A stretch of DNA of 32,992 nt from Patescibacteria group bacterium. Lineage in GTDB: Bacteria > Patescibacteriota > Patescibacteriia > UBA2591 > CALHIP01. The notes below the pieces were generated by a model, which saw only the letters and a list, made by a program, of their open reading frames with translations, had not been told where the DNA came from and did no database searches. Location: positions 1-32,992 of the forward strand of contig JAOACJ010000006.1 of NCBI GenBank assembly GCA_026417895.1, given 5' to 3'. Below, piece by piece: positions 4,466 to 11,527 of the stretch; within the stretch, counting starts at the first letter, position 1; each line of letters opens with the position of its first letter. The translations under genes were made by a program, and so were the position numbers.

Positions 4466-5707
4466 ATGCTTGAGATTAAATTTATTAGAGAAAACAAAGA
4501 AAAGGTGAAAACAGCCTGTCAAAATCGGGGAGTAAAAATTGAGATTGAATGGTTATTAGAATTAGACAAAAAAAGAAGGGATCTCATTCAAAAAATTGAA
4601 AAATTAAGAGCTGAAAAAAAAGAAAAAAATAAAAAAATTGAAGAGTTGAGAAAGAAAAAAGAGGAAATTAAGAACTTAGAAAAGAAATTAGAAAAAATAG
4701 AACAAGAATTTCGAGAATTGATGTTTAAAGTTCCTAATGTACCATTCGACGATGTACCAATCGGTCGAGACGAAGGCGGGAATGTAGTTTTAAAGACGAT
4801 CGGTCAAAAAAAAGGGTTTTCATTTCCAGTCAAAGATTACCTGACAATCGCCCGGGAACAAATTGACTTAGAAAGAGCGGCTAAAACTTCCGGTAGCCGT
4901 TTTTATTACTTAAAAGATGAAGTGGCTTTATTAGAATTAAAACTGATTAATTTTGCTGTTAATTTTTTAACAGACGAAAAAAATATTCAAAAAGTAATTG
5001 AAGAAAAAAAGTTAAATCTCGTCACTAAACCCTTTCGGCCAGTTGTCCCACCTTTAATGCTTAAACCAGAAATTATGAAAGGGATGGGTTATTTAGATCA
5101 AGCACCAGATGAAACTTATTTTTTAGAAAAAGATCAATTATATTTAATTGGTACAGCCGAACAGTCACTGGTGGCAATGCATGCTAATGAGATTTTGAAA
5201 GAACAGGACTTACCCCTACGTTATTTAGCTTTTCCTTGTTCGGCCTTTCGACGCGAAGCTGGTTCTTATGGTAAGGATGTGCGAGGTATTTTTCGGGTTC
5301 ATCAATTTGAAAAAGTGGAGATGGTTATTTTTTGTACCCCAGAAACTTCAAAATTAGAACACGAGTTGTTGGTCGGGCTAGAAGAGGCGATGATGCAAGA
5401 GTTAGAAATTCCTTATCGGATTGTTCAGATTTGTACTGGCGACCTTTATTATTCTTCAGCCAAAAGCTATGACATTGAAGCTTGGATTCCTTCTCAAGAA
5501 AAGTATCGCGAGTTAGGTTCCTCCTCTAACTGTACCGATTTTCAGGCGAGGCGATTAGGGATTAGATATAAAAATAAAAAAGGGAAAAATATCTTTGTTC
5601 ATACTTTAAATGCCACCGCCTTGGCCATACCGAGAACAATTATTGCTATTATAGAAAATTATCAAGAAAAAGAGGGTGGTTTTCGGTGGCCAGAAGTTTT
5701 ATGTTGA
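4466..5707 (+). CDS. serS: Seryl-tRNA synthetase
   Basis: 413 aa from the ATG at 4466, which has a GGAG 8 nt upstream; the in-frame ATG at 4445 would add seven residues not typical of the family. The N-terminal long coiled-coil arm that grips the tRNA variable loop is plain (about residues 30-95, Lys/Glu rich). The class II core has the SerRS pattern: TSGSRFYYLKDEVALLELKL, PPLMLKPEIMKGMGYL, YLIGTAEQSLVAMHANE, FRREAGSYGKDVRGIFRVHQ (motif 2) and NATALAIPRTIIAIIENYQ (motif 3). It charges tRNA(Ser), and tRNA(Sec) where present. Its end overlaps the alr start by 7 nt (ATGTTGA, 5701-5707), indicating translational coupling between SerRS and alanine racemase. Confidence 0.96.
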   Translation: MLEIKFIRENKEKVKTACQNRGVKIEIEWLLELDKKRRDLIQKIEKLRAEKKEKNKKIEELRKKKEEIKNLEKKLEKIEQEFRELMFKVPNVPFDDVPIGRDEGGNVVLKTIGQKKGFSFPVKDYLTIAREQIDLERAAKTSGSRFYYLKDEVALLELKLINFAVNFLTDEKNIQKVIEEKKLNLVTKPFRPVVPPLMLKPEIMKGMGYLDQAPDETYFLEKDQLYLIGTAEQSLVAMHANEILKEQDLPLRYLAFPCSAFRREAGSYGKDVRGIFRVHQFEKVEMVIFCTPETSKLEHELLVGLEEAMMQELEIPYRIVQICTGDLYYSSAKSYDIEAWIPSQEKYRELGSSSNCTDFQARRLGIRYKNKKGKNIFVHTLNATALAIPRTIIAIIENYQEKEGGFRWPEVLC

Positions 5708-6912
5708 CTTGGTTAGAAATATCAAAATCAGCCCTCATTCACAATCTAAAGCAATTTCGAAAAATTATTTCTCCAGAAGTAAAAATAATGGGGGTGATTA
5801 AGTCAAATGCCTATGGCCATGGCTTGATTGGTGTGGCGAAAATTCTTGAGAAATATATTGACTATTTTGGCGTTGCCTCTTTAGACGAAGCCCTCGTATT
5901 AAGAAAAAATGGCTTTAAAAAGCCAATTTTAATTTTGACCTATTGGGATCTTACTGAGACAGATAAGATTCAACAGGCTATTACTGAAAGGATAGACTTT
6001 GCTCTTTATACTTATCCACAGGTCAAAATTTTATCAAATTTAAGCCAAAAAATAGGCAAAAGGGTAAGGATTCATCTTAAAATAGATACCGGCACCTCAA
6101 GGATTGGTATTTTACCTAAAAATGCCTTAAATTTTGCTTTAAAATGCTTTAAATTGCCTGGATTGGAGCTGGAGGGTATCTTTACTCATTTTGCCAAATC
6201 AGAAGCCTATTATCAAAAATATACGCTTCTCCAAACTCAACGACTAATTAAAACAGTTCAAGAAATCAGTCAAAAAATTAGTCAAAAAACCATCCTCTAT
6301 AATAATCTTAGAAATAGAAACGTCTTAAGTTTCACTGCGATCGCTGGTAAAAATAAGACGAAATTGCCTTTAATTCATGCGGCTTGTACGGCGGCAACCA
6401 TTGTTAATCCAGCTACCCATTTGGATATGGTGCGGATTGGTCTTGGTTTGTATGGGCTCTGGCCAAGTTCAGAAACTAAGAAATTGGCCCAACAATTGGG
6501 TCGAAAAATTGATTTAAAACCTGCTTTAACTTGGAAAACAAGAGTGATCCAGGTCAAAGAGTTACCAGCCGGAACACCGATTGGCTATGATTGTACTTAT
6601 CGACTGAAAAAGAAAGGCAAGATTGCTGTTTTGCCGGTTGGTTATTGGGATGGCTATGATCGGAAACTTTCTAATTGTGGTGAAGTTTTAATCAAGGGAA
6701 GACGAATACCGATTCGTGGTCGGATTTGTATGAACTTGACAATGGTGGAGGTGACAAAAGTTTCAGATGTTAAAGAAGGTGATGCAGTAGTTTTGATTGG
6801 CCGACAAGGTCAAGAAGAAATTACTCCTGAAGAATTAGCGGAAAAAGTCGGAACGATTAATTACGAAATAGTAACAAGAATTAATCCTCTATTACCAAGA
6901 ATTTATAGATAA
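5701..6912 (+). CDS. alr: Alanine racemase
   Basis: 403 aa from the ATG at 5701; the start at 5686 would overlap serS by 22 nt and add MARSF before the conserved MLTWLEISKSAL. Interconverts L- and D-alanine with PLP for peptidoglycan. The TIM-barrel domain carries the PLP lysine K34 in VIKSNAYGHG; the substrate-side catalytic tyrosine is Y296 in PIGYDCTYR, followed by LPVGYWDGYDR and the C-terminal beta domain with GRICMNLTMVEV. About residues 190-225 (SQKISQKTILYNNLRNRNVLS) are an unusual lysine/asparagine-rich stretch between barrel strands. It is the last gene of the greA-lysS-serS-alr run and ends 21 nt before a strong terminator. Its D-Ala product would feed the Ddl enzymes whose genes, just downstream, are broken. 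Confidence 0.95.
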   Translation: MLTWLEISKSALIHNLKQFRKIISPEVKIMGVIKSNAYGHGLIGVAKILEKYIDYFGVASLDEALVLRKNGFKKPILILTYWDLTETDKIQQAITERIDFALYTYPQVKILSNLSQKIGKRVRIHLKIDTGTSRIGILPKNALNFALKCFKLPGLELEGIFTHFAKSEAYYQKYTLLQTQRLIKTVQEISQKISQKTILYNNLRNRNVLSFTAIAGKNKTKLPLIHAACTAATIVNPATHLDMVRIGLGLYGLWPSSETKKLAQQLGRKIDLKPALTWKTRVIQVKELPAGTPIGYDCTYRLKKKGKIAVLPVGYWDGYDRKLSNCGEVLIKGRRIPIRGRICMNLTMVEVTKVSDVKEGDAVVLIGRQGQEEITPEELAEKVGTINYEIVTRINPLLPRIYR

Positions 6913-7507: not shown

Positions 7508-7780
7508 ATGTCCGAGGAAGCCAATCAAAAAAAGTCTCTTAAGTTGGAAATTCTGGAAAAAATTAGTTCATTAGTAACAGCTGGTTTTGGCTTGGTGGCG
7601 GCTTTAGCCTGGAATGAGGCAATTAAAGAATTTTTTACTGTTCTTTTTCCTCAACCAAGTATGATCTGGGGAAAATTTGCTTATGCCCTACTCATTACAG
7701 TTCTGGTGGTTATTATTACTGTCAAGTTGGGTGATTTGATTGGTCGAATAAAGGAAAAAATTAGTAGTGAAGAAAAATAA
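7508..7780 (+). CDS. DUF5654 family small membrane protein
   Basis: 90 aa. The pattern KISSLVTAGFGLVAALAWNEAIKEFF followed by WGKFAYALLITVLVVIITVKLG (about residues 20-46 and 54-76; two membrane helices) matches what I know as DUF5654, a small family seen in Patescibacteria and archaea with no assigned function. The N- and C-terminal tails are charged and probably cytoplasmic. Its stop codon overlaps the start of the first Ddl copy (TAATG, 7778-7782), so the two were built as a coupled pair under the promoter at 7443-7471. Family assignment is from memory of the motif, not a search. Confidence 0.75.
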   Translation: MSEEANQKKSLKLEILEKISSLVTAGFGLVAALAWNEAIKEFFTVLFPQPSMIWGKFAYALLITVLVVIITVKLGDLIGRIKEKISSEEK

Positions 7781-8890
7781 TGGTATCAGAAAAGACAAAA
7801 TTAAAAATTGGTGTTATTTTTGGTGGTAAATCATCGGAGAAAGAAGTCTCTTTAGCCGGTGGCCGACATGTTTATCAACACCTCGATCGTTCAAAATTTA
7901 TACCGCTGGCTATTTTTTGGGATTCAAAATTGAAGTTTTGGCAAATTCCTGATAGCTTAATTATCAGAAATACTTGTAAGTAAATTGAGGAAAATTTAGA
8001 AAATATTAGAAAATAAAGGTACCAAAAGAATCTCGTTTGAAGATCTGAAGAGTTGAAAAATTTAATTGACTTAGCTTTTTGGTCACTCATGGTAAATATG
8101 GTGATGATGGTTGTTTACAAGGACTGTTAGAACTTTTAGAGATTCCTTATACTGGTTCGGGTGTTCTTTCTGCTGCCTTGGGTATGGATAAAGCGATGCA
8201 AAGAGAATTAATGAAGGCTTATGGTGGCATTAATATACCAGATTATTTAGTTATTTCCCAAAAGGAGTGGCAAGAAAATAAAGAAAAAGTAAGAGAAAAA
8301 ATAGAAAAAAAATTCGGTTGGCCAGTGGTAACGAAGCCAACGCGCGAAGGTTCGACAATTGGTGTAATGTTGGTTAAGGAATTTAAGGATTTAGAAAAAG
8401 CAATGAACTATGCTTTGCTTTGACATACGACAATCAGGTTTTAGTGGAAAAAGGGATTCGTGGAAGAGAATTTTATTGCATTGTTTTTGGTAATGAAGAT
8501 CCAGTAGCCTTTTTACCTACCGAAACAATTTATGAATCAGAGATTTTTACTTACGACCACAAATATCTACCCGGCGCTTCCAGAAAGGTGACACCGATTA
8601 AAATAGAAGAGAAAATTATTCAAGAAATTCAAGAACAAGCCAAACGGATGTATCTGGTTTTAGGTTGTCAAGGCTACGCACGAATTGACAGTTTTGTTGA
8701 AGAGGGTGGGCGAGTTTTCATTACTGACCCAAACTCAGCCGCCTCAACAGGAATGGGGCCATCTTCTTGGACTTATCATCAGGCTGCTTTGGCTGGCTTG
8801 TCGGTACCGGAATTTTTAACCAAGATTATTGAATTGGCTCTGGAGGCGCATCAAAGTAAAGATATAGAACTAATGAAAGTAAAGATATAA
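7780..8890 (+). pseudogene. ddl: D-alanine--D-alanine ligase-like gene, copy 1, broken by several frameshifts
   Basis: ATP-grasp ligase joining D-Ala to D-Ala (or another D-residue) for the peptidoglycan stem. Homology continues across three frames: KIGVIFGGKSSEKEVSLAGG from 7780 until a TAA at 7981; a muddled stretch 7980-8080 where GTKRISFEDL and EELKNLIDLAF lie in different frames; VTHGKYGDDGCLQGLLE through KPTREGSTIGVML from 8079 to 8423; and YDNQVLVEKGIRGREFYC to the end from about 8420. The join near 8075 looks like loss of one T in a T-run. The metal-binding end is unusual: TDPNSAASTGMGPSS in place of the E-x-N-T-x-P-G-M seen in standard Ddl and in copy 2. Coupled to the DUF5654 gene. 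A real pseudogene or locally poor assembly are both possible; an intact protein cannot be made by normal decoding. Confidence 0.85.
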
Positions 8891-8911
8891 AAAGCTTTTT
8901 CACTCCACTAA

Positions 8912-8933
8912 TTGTGTTAATACATTAACACAA
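8912..8933. repeat. 22-bp perfect palindrome, left copy
   Basis: Arms TTGTGTTAAT (8912-8921) and ATTAACACAA (8924-8933) are exact reverse complements around a 2-nt centre, AC. The site starts 22 nt after the stop of Ddl copy 1. The same sequence, with one base changed and opposite orientation of the centre, lies at 13007-13028 after the recombinase gene. It could be a recombinase or regulator site, or a 3'-end RNA hairpin; there is no T-tract for a standard terminator. Confidence 0.8.
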
Positions 8934-8934
8934 G

Positions 8935-8979
8935 TTATACACAGCCCCGCTTGACAAAAACAATTAAGACTTATATATT
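8935..8979 (+). promoter_or_regulatory. Strong promoter with an abutting DnaA-type box
   Basis: TTGACA (8951-8956), 17-nt spacer, TATATT (8974-8979). Seven nt upstream of the -35 is TTATACACA (8935-8943), matching the DnaA-box consensus TTATNCACA. The predicted leader of over 100 nt runs to the small gene at 9100, which has a second -10 box (TATAAT, 9085-9090) much nearer. The order box, -35, -10 is repeated before the recombinase gene at 11915-11961. Confidence 0.7.
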
Positions 8980-9099
8980 ATATATGGTAACAGTTCTACG
9001 ACAATCTTTGACAGTTCTTTGACATCTAAAAATAAAGTTCAGAAATAAACTCAAAAATTAAGCCGGCTATATAATCTATCTTGATATAATTTAATCTCT

Positions 9100-9423
9100 A
9101 TGTCTGAGGGGGGCCCTGAACAACCTCTGTCTCGGTCCGAACTGCTACTAGAGAAACAACTGCAAGAACAAGAACAAGAGCAAGAACAAGAGAAAGATAG
9201 AGAGAAAAGAAGACAGTTGAATAATCTTGATCTAAAGAGAGTAGAACTCCTTAACCAGCGGGCTGAGATAGAAGCAAAGAAAGAGCTCCTCCAGGCGGAT
9301 CCGGCTAATCGTGATCGGCTACTGATTCTCGATCAGGAGCTAAAAAGGGTAGAGAGAAAAATAGAAAACGTGAGTCGAAAAATACAAAGGTTAGGTGCCG
9401 ATTGGATTCGGGTTAGAGATTAA
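9100..9423 (+). CDS. Small charged coiled-coil protein, function unknown
   Basis: 107 aa, family not recognised. No signal peptide or membrane segment. A Gln/Glu run at about residues 20-32 comes from a short hexamer-like DNA repeat (9163-9192); residues 15-98 are almost continuous heptad-like helix rich in Glu, Lys, Arg, Leu and Gln, ending in RLGADWIRVRD. The GC content (about 47% in the first 60-nt lines) is well above that of neighbours, and CTG/CTC/CTA leucine codons are frequent, suggesting a different origin. The gene lies between the two broken Ddl copies, with a promoter at 8951-8979 or a near-leaderless one (TATAAT 9085-9090, 9 nt before the ATG) and its own terminator at 9499-9531. 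The insulated layout fits a mobile or accessory cargo gene. Confidence 0.6.
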   Translation: MSEGGPEQPLSRSELLLEKQLQEQEQEQEQEKDREKRRQLNNLDLKRVELLNQRAEIEAKKELLQADPANRDRLLILDQELKRVERKIENVSRKIQRLGADWIRVRD

Positions 9424-9498
9424 ACAAAAAAACATGAGTAAAGTAGAACGTTGTCAATGGACCGAGATTTAAAAAAGCCTCATTAAGTAAGCGATGGG

Positions 9499-9531
9499 GA
9501 GGATTCGTATTAAATAAAAATCCTCTTTTTT
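9499..9531 (+). terminator. Intrinsic terminator after the coiled-coil gene
   Basis: GAGGATT (9499-9505) pairs with AATCCTC (9519-9525) over a 13-nt loop, followed directly by six T residues. It would stop transcription before Ddl copy 2. Confidence 0.8.
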
Positions 9532-9549
9532 ATTTTAGCCAAACGAGAC

Positions 9550-9577
9550 TTAACATTTTTATAAAATTCATTATAAT
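9550..9577 (+). promoter_or_regulatory. Promoter of Ddl copy 2
   Basis: TTAACA (9550-9555), 16-nt spacer, TATAAT (9572-9577), only 10 nt before the ATG at 9588. The promoter looks intact although the gene is broken. Confidence 0.65.
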
Positions 9578-9587
9578 ATTGACAAAT

Positions 9588-10660
9588 ATGTCTAAAGAAT
9601 CAAAAATGAAAATCGGTATCATTTTTGGTGGTAAATCCTCAGAAAAAAAGTTTCTTTAGTTAGAAGGTGGTCGTCATGTTTATTATAAAATTTCTTCGGA
9701 AAAGTACGAAAAAAAATTCCCTTTTTTGTTGATACCAAACTTCAATTATGGAAAATTAACGATTTTCTTATTATCCAAAATACGACCTCTGACTTAGAGC
9801 GACTTTTACCAGAATACGGCGAGAGGGTTCGTTATGAAAAATTGCCGGAAATGATTGATTTTGCCTTTATTATTGGACATGGTAAGTATCTTGAGGATGG
9901 ATACTTTCAGGGACTTTTAGAGATCTTAGATGTTCCCTACAATGGGCCGGGTGTTTTAGGCTCGGCTTTGGGGATGAATAAATATGTTTTTCGACAAATT
10001 TTGGCAGCTCAAGGACTGAAAGTGCCAAAATATCTAGCTGTTTTTGACCAAGAGTGGATAAAGAATCGGGAAAAAATTATCAGTCAAATCAAGGAAAAGA
10101 TAGGTTTTCCCTGCTTAATTAAACCATCTCGCGAGGGTTGTAGTACTGGTATTACGGTGGTGCGAGAAGAAAATAGACTTCCAGAGGCGATAGAAAAAGT
10201 CTTTGTTTGGGATCGGATTATTTTGGTGGACGAATATATATATTGAAAAGGCTATTGAAATTACTTGTTCAGTTTTAGGTAACGAAAAATTAGAAGCCCT
10301 GCCTTTGACGGAAACACCTTGGCAGCAGAATTTAGAGTATCTAACCTTATTAGACAAATTTTTACCTGGTGGCGCAGAGATGATTACTCCGGCTCGACTC
10401 GATGACGAGACAACAAAAAGGGCCAAAGAAACAGCCATTAAGGTTTGTCAAATTTTAAATTTAATTGGTTATCCAAGGATTGATATGTTTGTGAGGGATG
10501 GTGAAATTATTGTTTTAGAACCGAACACTTTACCCGGCGTAACACCCCCAACAATGGTTTTCCATCAGACAGCTGAAATTGGAATGACTCCGGAGGAATC
10601 TTGGATCGGATTATTCAATTGGGGCTAGAAGCGCATCGAAATAAAAAGGGTTCACTCTAA
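9588..10660 (+). pseudogene. ddl: D-alanine--D-alanine ligase-like gene, copy 2, broken by several frameshifts
   Basis: A paralogue of the copy at 7780-8890 with clearly diverged protein sequence. Homology runs through alternating frames: MKIGIIFGGKSSEK then a TAG at 9657; a compensating indel pair around 9640-9662 (EVSL-GGRHVY recoverable); one A missing in the A8 run near 9710; MIDFAFIIGHGKYLEDGYFQ to RIILVDEY in one frame (to 10246); a slip in the TA-dinucleotide run near 10240; EKAIEITCSVLGN to EESWIGL in the next; and a last shift near 10610 leading to QLGLEAHRNKKG and TAA at 10660. It keeps the standard metal-binding end EPNTLPGVTPPT, so it resembles a normal Ddl more than copy 1 does. 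It has its own promoter and is followed 45 nt later by ftsQ, a normal ddl-ftsQ order. Confidence 0.85.
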
Positions 10661-10705: not shown

Positions 10706-11527
10706 ATGCGCATCATTTCTTTTTTTCAAAAAAAACAAATACCAGAAAGGAAGAGGGCGAGACGAGAGTACCAAGAAAAAAAGACGGTTTCAAAGTTTCT
10801 CATCTGGGTCATTATTTTTTTTGTTGTTTTTTTGATTAGTAGTTTATTTTATTTAATTTTCTTTTCATCAATTTTTAAAATTAGATATATCTCTTTTGAA
10901 GTCAATGATCAACCTTTATTGAAAATAGATGAGGAATTGTTAAAAAGTGAAATTAATAAAATTTTATCGAAAAAGTTTTATTTTTTAACTTTGGATAACA
11001 TTTTCTTTTTGCCAAAAAAAGAAATAGAAAATCTTTTTACCAGCGATCGGCAGATAGAAAAGTTTCAAATTTTTAAAATTTTTCCTAATGGAATGAAGAT
11101 AAAAATTGATCTTTGGCAACCAGTAGCGACTTTTTTGTCTCAAGGGGGCGATTACTTATTATTAAACAAGAACGGCGCCATAATTAAGAAGATAAATGAG
11201 AGTGAGGCTACTTTAGCTGATTTACCGATGATTGTTGATCTGAGTAATCGTCCAATGGGAACTTTGCCGCTTTTATCTATTTTTGAATTTTTCAAAAAAA
11301 CCACTAATTTTGACTGTAAGATTCGTAGAATAGAAATTATTGAAGAAAAAGGTGTTTTAAGTTACCAAGCCATTACTTCAGAAAATTGGAAAATTTATTT
11401 TGAACCAAAAGAGAATCTATCTGAACAAATTAACAACCTTGCCCTGATTTTAAGAGAAAAAATTGATGACCGACAAAAACTTGAATATATTGATTTGAGA
11501 TTTGGTCATCGAATTTTTTATAAATAA
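10706..11527 (+). CDS. ftsQ: Cell division protein FtsQ/DivIB-like
   Basis: 273 aa bitopic membrane protein. A basic cytoplasmic tail (1-30) is followed by one membrane helix at about 31-54 (FLIWVIIFFVVFLISSLFYLIFF). The extracytoplasmic part starts with a POTRA-like segment (FKIRYISFEV, then NFFFLPKKEIENLF-type pattern and KIFPNGMKIKIDLWQPVATF) and the FtsQ beta domain (YLLLNKNGAIIKK). The ending KLEYIDLRFGHRIFYK is the form often seen in Patescibacteria. It would link the FtsBL and septal synthase complex at the divisome. It lies directly after Ddl copy 2, a common ddl-ftsQ arrangement, but ftsA and ftsZ do not follow; a small membrane protein and a recombinase do. An AT-rich repeat-like tract lies just before the start (10667-10704). 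Confidence 0.85.
   Translation: MRIISFFQKKQIPERKRARREYQEKKTVSKFLIWVIIFFVVFLISSLFYLIFFSSIFKIRYISFEVNDQPLLKIDEELLKSEINKILSKKFYFLTLDNIFFLPKKEIENLFTSDRQIEKFQIFKIFPNGMKIKIDLWQPVATFLSQGGDYLLLNKNGAIIKKINESEATLADLPMIVDLSNRPMGTLPLLSIFEFFKKTTNFDCKIRRIEIIEEKGVLSYQAITSENWKIYFEPKENLSEQINNLALILREKIDDRQKLEYIDLRFGHRIFYK

Follow-up and report, generated by a model that had tools for sequence, protein, structure and literature searches.

Probable recent loss of an unusual tandem pair of D-Ala-D-Ala ligase genes in a Patescibacteria genome

The window, that is the whole stretch of 32,992 nucleotides analysed here, is contig C6 of the Patescibacteria genome G000, which comprises 649,900 bases in 18 contigs with an estimated completeness of 98.5%. 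Its genes are arranged in the order greA, lysS, serS, alr, DUF5654, ddl copy 1, a small ORF, ddl copy 2, ftsQ and a xer-type recombinase, with a tandem pair of Ddl paralogues placed between alr and ftsQ. The features of this region are:

5686..6912, + strand: alr, alanine racemase, intact (PF01168 3e-55, PF00842 3e-47; TIGR00492 349 bits, cut-off 168)
7508..7780, + strand: small protein of the DUF5654 family, intact (PF18898 2e-21; synteny)
7780..8890, + strand: ddl copy 1, pseudogene with a rewritten C-terminal end (translation, frameshift-aware alignment to the sister genome G001, pieces matched by PF07478)
9100..9423, + strand: small intact ORF of 107 aa between the ddl copies (ORF list)
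9588..10636, + strand: ddl copy 2, pseudogene (translation, frameshift-aware alignment to G001, pieces matched by PF07478)
10706..11527, + strand: ftsQ/divIB, intact, end of the alr-ddl-ftsQ slot (PF03799 4e-5)

All remaining genes of the window are intact according to their ORFs, Pfam matches and an orthologue survey. The DUF5654 gene is also found 3′ of alr in the ddl-less genomes G007 and G008 and has no counterpart at this spot in G001, which belongs to the same genus as G000. The 107-aa ORF gave no match in a Pfam search; it contains an internal EQ-rich repeat, and its counterpart in G001 is an 80-aa ORF in the same place, alike only at the ends.

An earlier note, based on the sequence alone, had described both ddl paralogues as broken beside an intact alanine racemase, copy 1 being spread over three frames and copy 2 over two alternating ones, with in-frame stops TAA 7981 and TAG 9657. 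Three-frame translation and frameshift-aware alignment to the intact proteins of G001 confirmed this layout in full. In copy 1 the stop at 7981 is accompanied by frame changes near 8005, 8034, 8075 and 8419, while in copy 2 the stop at 9657 belongs to a disturbed stretch at approximately 9640–9660 and is followed by frame changes near 9715, 10241 and 10600. Several of these breaks fall within homopolymers or short repeats, as the note had pointed out for homopolymer and TA runs. PF07478 matches pieces of the broken copies (the best with 2e-28), and the N- and C-terminal domains of Ddl, which share one open frame in G001, do not share one in either copy of G000. Thus, both genes bear the marks of pseudogenes, with several independent disabling lesions in G000 and intact orthologues in G001. 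No other Ddl was found in G000 by searches with PF07478 and with a profile of 24 Ddl sequences.

In G001 the same block carries both ddl genes open, with 355 and 356 codons. Read through their breaks by frameshift-aware alignment, the G000 copies share 275 of 351 residues (78%, copy 1) and 278 of 351 residues (79%, copy 2) with their G001 counterparts, which places homology far above chance. Both values exceed the median identity between the two genomes (71% over 336 orthologues), so that the genes were constrained through most of the period after the species split. The last ancestor shared by G000 and G001 most probably had two functional copies.

The same orthologues were used to see whether the damage is local. 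Proteins of G001 were searched against approximately 633 kb of the 650 kb of G000, and only 10 of the 336 orthologues, including both ddl genes, were flagged as broken. Two flagged ORFs lie in a contig-end stretch and look like spurious antisense rRNA ORFs; another flagged gene, called nadD-nadE-like on the basis of its sequence alone, is fused in G001 but split in G000. Apparently genuine breaks in individual genes affect pheS, a class-I aminotransferase and a 2-thiouracil desulfurase. The reverse search, from G000 into G001, flagged six genes, mostly short ORFs. Most lesions of the survey fall in the ddl pair, which rules out a generally bad assembly as their cause and agrees with the earlier description of the damage as local. 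The broken aminotransferase (L055:11338-10152, contig C3) has a stop and a frame change and is intact in G001 (L097:1490-2713); no other homologue of this class was detected in the part of G000 searched, and a counterpart of the second homologue of G001 (L103) was not found there.

The main rival to a real loss is that base-level consensus errors, arising in homopolymers or short repeats or from low coverage or a mixture of strains, broke frames that are intact in the living cell. The position of several breaks in homopolymers and short repeats is what such errors would produce. In pheS (L028:3131-4188, contig C8) one frame change relative to G001 was found in a repeat-rich stretch, and since this gene is expected to be essential, the assembly probably contains some frame errors. 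Substitution rates give an ambiguous answer. Over 46 control genes private changes were almost equally divided between G000 and G001 (1059:1034), and for copy 1 they are also near even (18–23 in G000 versus 14–21 in G001), as in a gene that is still constrained, while copy 2 accumulated 20–29 changes in G000 against 10–14 in G001, depending on the outgroup, with p < 0.05 for one of the three outgroups. At positions invariant in four intact homologues, copy 1 is changed 7 times in G000 and 5 times in G001, copy 2 12 times and 2 times, respectively. With no excess in copy 1 and a modest one in copy 2, the loss looks recent. Given how few extra substitutions there are, the indels are numerous, and consensus errors would leave the same picture; this pattern fits recent inactivation and would also be compatible with local errors. 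Active-site residues kept in both copies also speak for errors. Nevertheless, frame breaks are rare elsewhere in the genome, so that errors would need to have accumulated in two neighbouring genes; neither the substitution-type lesion TAA 7981 together with the rewritten end of copy 1 nor the excess of changes at invariant positions of copy 2 is expected of them. We consider consensus errors an improbable source of the whole pattern.

The two copies are not alike in their active sites. For the catalytic residues of Ddl, which we take to be Glu15, Lys144, Tyr216, Arg255, Asp257, Glu270 and Asn272 in the numbering of E. coli DdlB, most are kept, the exceptions being Asp for Glu270 in copy 1 and Phe for Tyr216 in copy 2, and the active-site residues are retained in both broken copies of G000. 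Copy 1 has ITDPNSAASTGMGPSSW at the place of the Ddl motif E-x-NT-x-PG, its metal loop being rebuilt, while copy 2 retains EPNTLPG and carries, besides Phe at position 216, a Cys in the GSS loop. All four close copy 2 proteins share the motif DKFLPGGA, with its Phe at the Tyr/Phe switch, and the broken copy 2 of G000 has it too. Diverged paralogues with different metal-loop motifs had thus been correctly recognised, and because the differences at catalytic positions are consistent across genomes, it is plausible, as far as sequence can tell, that the copies made different dipeptides. In lactic acid bacteria the Tyr/Phe switch determines dipeptide versus depsipeptide activity, Phe being typical of D-Ala-D-Lac ligases (PMC5996685). 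Against TIGR01205 (cut-off 245.65 bits) the intact copies of G001 score 249.4 (copy 1) and 244.8 (copy 2), and copy 1 of the Giovannonibacteria locus L040 scores 215.6, versus 382 for an ordinary Ddl of the class. Copy 2 of G001 reaches 161.3 bits with the NCBIfam model D_ala_D_lac, below its cut-off of 550 bits. An AF2 model of G001 copy 1 has a pLDDT of 90.9 and resembles Ddls of solved structure, its best Foldseek match being S. aureus Ddl (7u9k, TM 0.86 by query).

The pair itself is not confined to one genus. It was found in G001, G288, G124 and the Giovannonibacteria locus, and in a diverged form in G036. A tree built from 46 Ddl-type proteins places copy 1 and copy 2 in separate groups, and in every bootstrap tree each group occupies one side of a branch; the groups adjoin one another and are set apart from ordinary Ddl of the class, though their joint grouping has a support of only 80/49. 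The pair lies directly between alr and ftsQ in G001 and G288 and 5′ of ftsQ in G124. In G003, of the same order, one ordinary ddl occupies this slot, also next to ftsQ, so that the pair appears to have replaced a single ddl. In L040 and G124 the stop codon of copy 1 overlaps the start codon of copy 2, which suggests that their translation may be coupled; a heteromeric enzyme is a conjecture. Taken together, the copies, which appear to be old tandem paralogues, constitute a defined two-gene variant of Ddl. Two neighbouring arrangements were also registered: in G124 an aminotransferase with a Mur-ligase-like fragment (L160:5459-7369) stands between serS and the pair, replacing alr, and in Giovannonibacteria a third Ddl-like gene with the degenerate metal site INKANALPK (L040:5071-5997) is placed directly 5′ of the pair. 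Composite proteins occur in the order as well. G023 encodes a 792-aa Ddl-Ddl fusion with two sets of N- and C-terminal domains (L015:163-2541), the halves of which are on very long branches of the tree, and in G009 a protein of approximately 800 aa (L014 and L020) combines an ATP-grasp half similar to L-amino-acid ligases with a Ddl-like half.

The steps on both sides of Ddl are preserved in G000, which retains intact Alr, MurF (TIGR01143 above cut-off), four Mur ligases and three transpeptidases. Relatives show a similar combination. No PF07478 match was obtained in 14 of the 26 genomes of the order, while all 26 have a MurF match (above the curated cut-off in only 6). Alr is present in eight Ddl-less genomes (G007, G008, G012, G014, G018, G019, G021 and G024), and in none of these, nor in G011 and G017, did the Ddl profile give a match at E values up to 10; all ten have a MurF match. 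Not all Ddl-less assemblies are fragmented (G007 consists of 2 contigs, G018 and G019 of 4 each), and G007 and G008 preserve the order of genes around alr, with ddl simply absent. Over the 381 genomes of the class Alr was found in 234, of which 74 had no match to G001 copy 1, an upper bound as a single protein was used for the search. A search with PF13535 across the order yielded no replacement ATP-grasp candidate common to the Ddl-less genomes, nor was a ligase candidate encoded next to alr or murF in them (RecJ, DUF5654, RNase H, Ham1 and an FtsI-like PBP are encoded there). Literature on the D-Ala-D-Ala ligase of Patescibacteria offered nothing on point. Since Ddl is absent recurrently in the order while Alr and MurF are kept, G000 looks like one more loss.

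Based on these data we favour, with a probability of about 0.7, the view that G000 has really and recently lost its unusual tandem pair of Ddl genes, within a lineage that often loses Ddl. The alr-ddl-ftsQ slot usual for Patescibacteria was occupied here by old tandem paralogues, and both probably lost their function recently, chiefly through short slippage-type indels with the addition of nonsense codons. The cell would now be devoid of an ATP-grasp D-Ala-D-Ala ligase, and MurF would be fed by dipeptide or stem peptide taken from outside, or by the product of an unrecognised ligase. Genomes of the same order with Alr and MurF but no Ddl must already rely on one of these two sources, and supply of dipeptide from outside fits a reduced, episymbiont-like genome. 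Of the earlier claim that, if both copies are dead, D-Ala has no ligase here and the wall pathway must use another gene or has changed, the first part stands in so far as no other Ddl was found in G000, while the second turns into a question of the whole lineage rather than of one genome.

It may also be that the pair made a side product, such as D-Ala-D-Lac, so that one copy or none mattered for the wall, and that its loss cost nothing because an unrecognised dipeptide route operates throughout the order. As the genes are truly broken in this case too, it is a variant of the preferred reading and the weights of the two overlap. Absence of Ddl in many relatives with Alr and MurF is in line with it, as is the Phe of copy 2 at the position of Tyr216, a mark of depsipeptide ligases (PMC5996685). 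However, the pair occupies precisely the canonical position of ddl, adjoining alr and ftsQ, and the PF13535 search gave no alternative ligase, which makes a mere side product unlikely. Expression by programmed frameshifting or a changed genetic code could appeal to the coding potential retained in pieces, but each gene would require approximately four such sites, the sister G001 has plain open frames and reading TGA as Gly (table 25) leaves both ddl genes closed, so this is hardly credible.

D-Ala-D-Ala ligase joins two D-alanines; it is held indispensable for peptidoglycan and is a target of antibiotics. G000 retains the steps before and after it, yet both copies have apparently just been broken, and several near-complete genomes without Ddl stand beside it. 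The question raised is how such tiny bacteria complete their wall precursor, whether a new ligase does it, the stem peptide is altered or a wall component is obtained by cross-feeding; the altered catalytic positions of the pair pose an enzyme question of their own. The intact sister pair, the wider two-gene family and the recurrent absence of Ddl in the order, all of them added to the first reading of the locus, make an alternative wall route a lineage-wide question and not a single-genome quirk. More tentatively, some Patescibacteria may possess an obligate two-gene, possibly heteromeric, Ddl with complementary active-site changes, and much of the class, G000 included, may have Alr, MurF and transpeptidases but no Ddl and use an unknown ligase or the dipeptide of neighbours; this broader picture is possible though doubtful.

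Compared with known systems, the copies resemble Ddl (PF01820 and PF07478, TIGR01205) in the predicted fold of G001 copy 1, in the N-terminal Glu motif, and in keeping the catalytic Lys of the KP motif, the Arg and the first metal Asp. They differ in being only about 30% identical to solved Ddls and in that both genes are broken in G000; moreover, in copy 1 Asp takes the place of the metal Glu and the loop is two residues longer and lacks the PG motif, and copy 2 replaces Tyr216 by Phe and the first Ser of the GSS loop by Cys. With D-Ala-D-Lac ligases, such as LmDdl2 of Leuconostoc and lactobacillar Ddl, copy 2 shares Phe at the activity-setting position, but it remains far under the cut-off of the D_ala_D_lac model and such an activity would be putative. 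In MurC-Ddl of Chlamydia, a fused Ddl protein, and in the Ddl-Ddl fusion of G023 a Ddl unit is likewise passed on jointly with a second enzyme unit, whereas the ddl pair consists of two separate genes.
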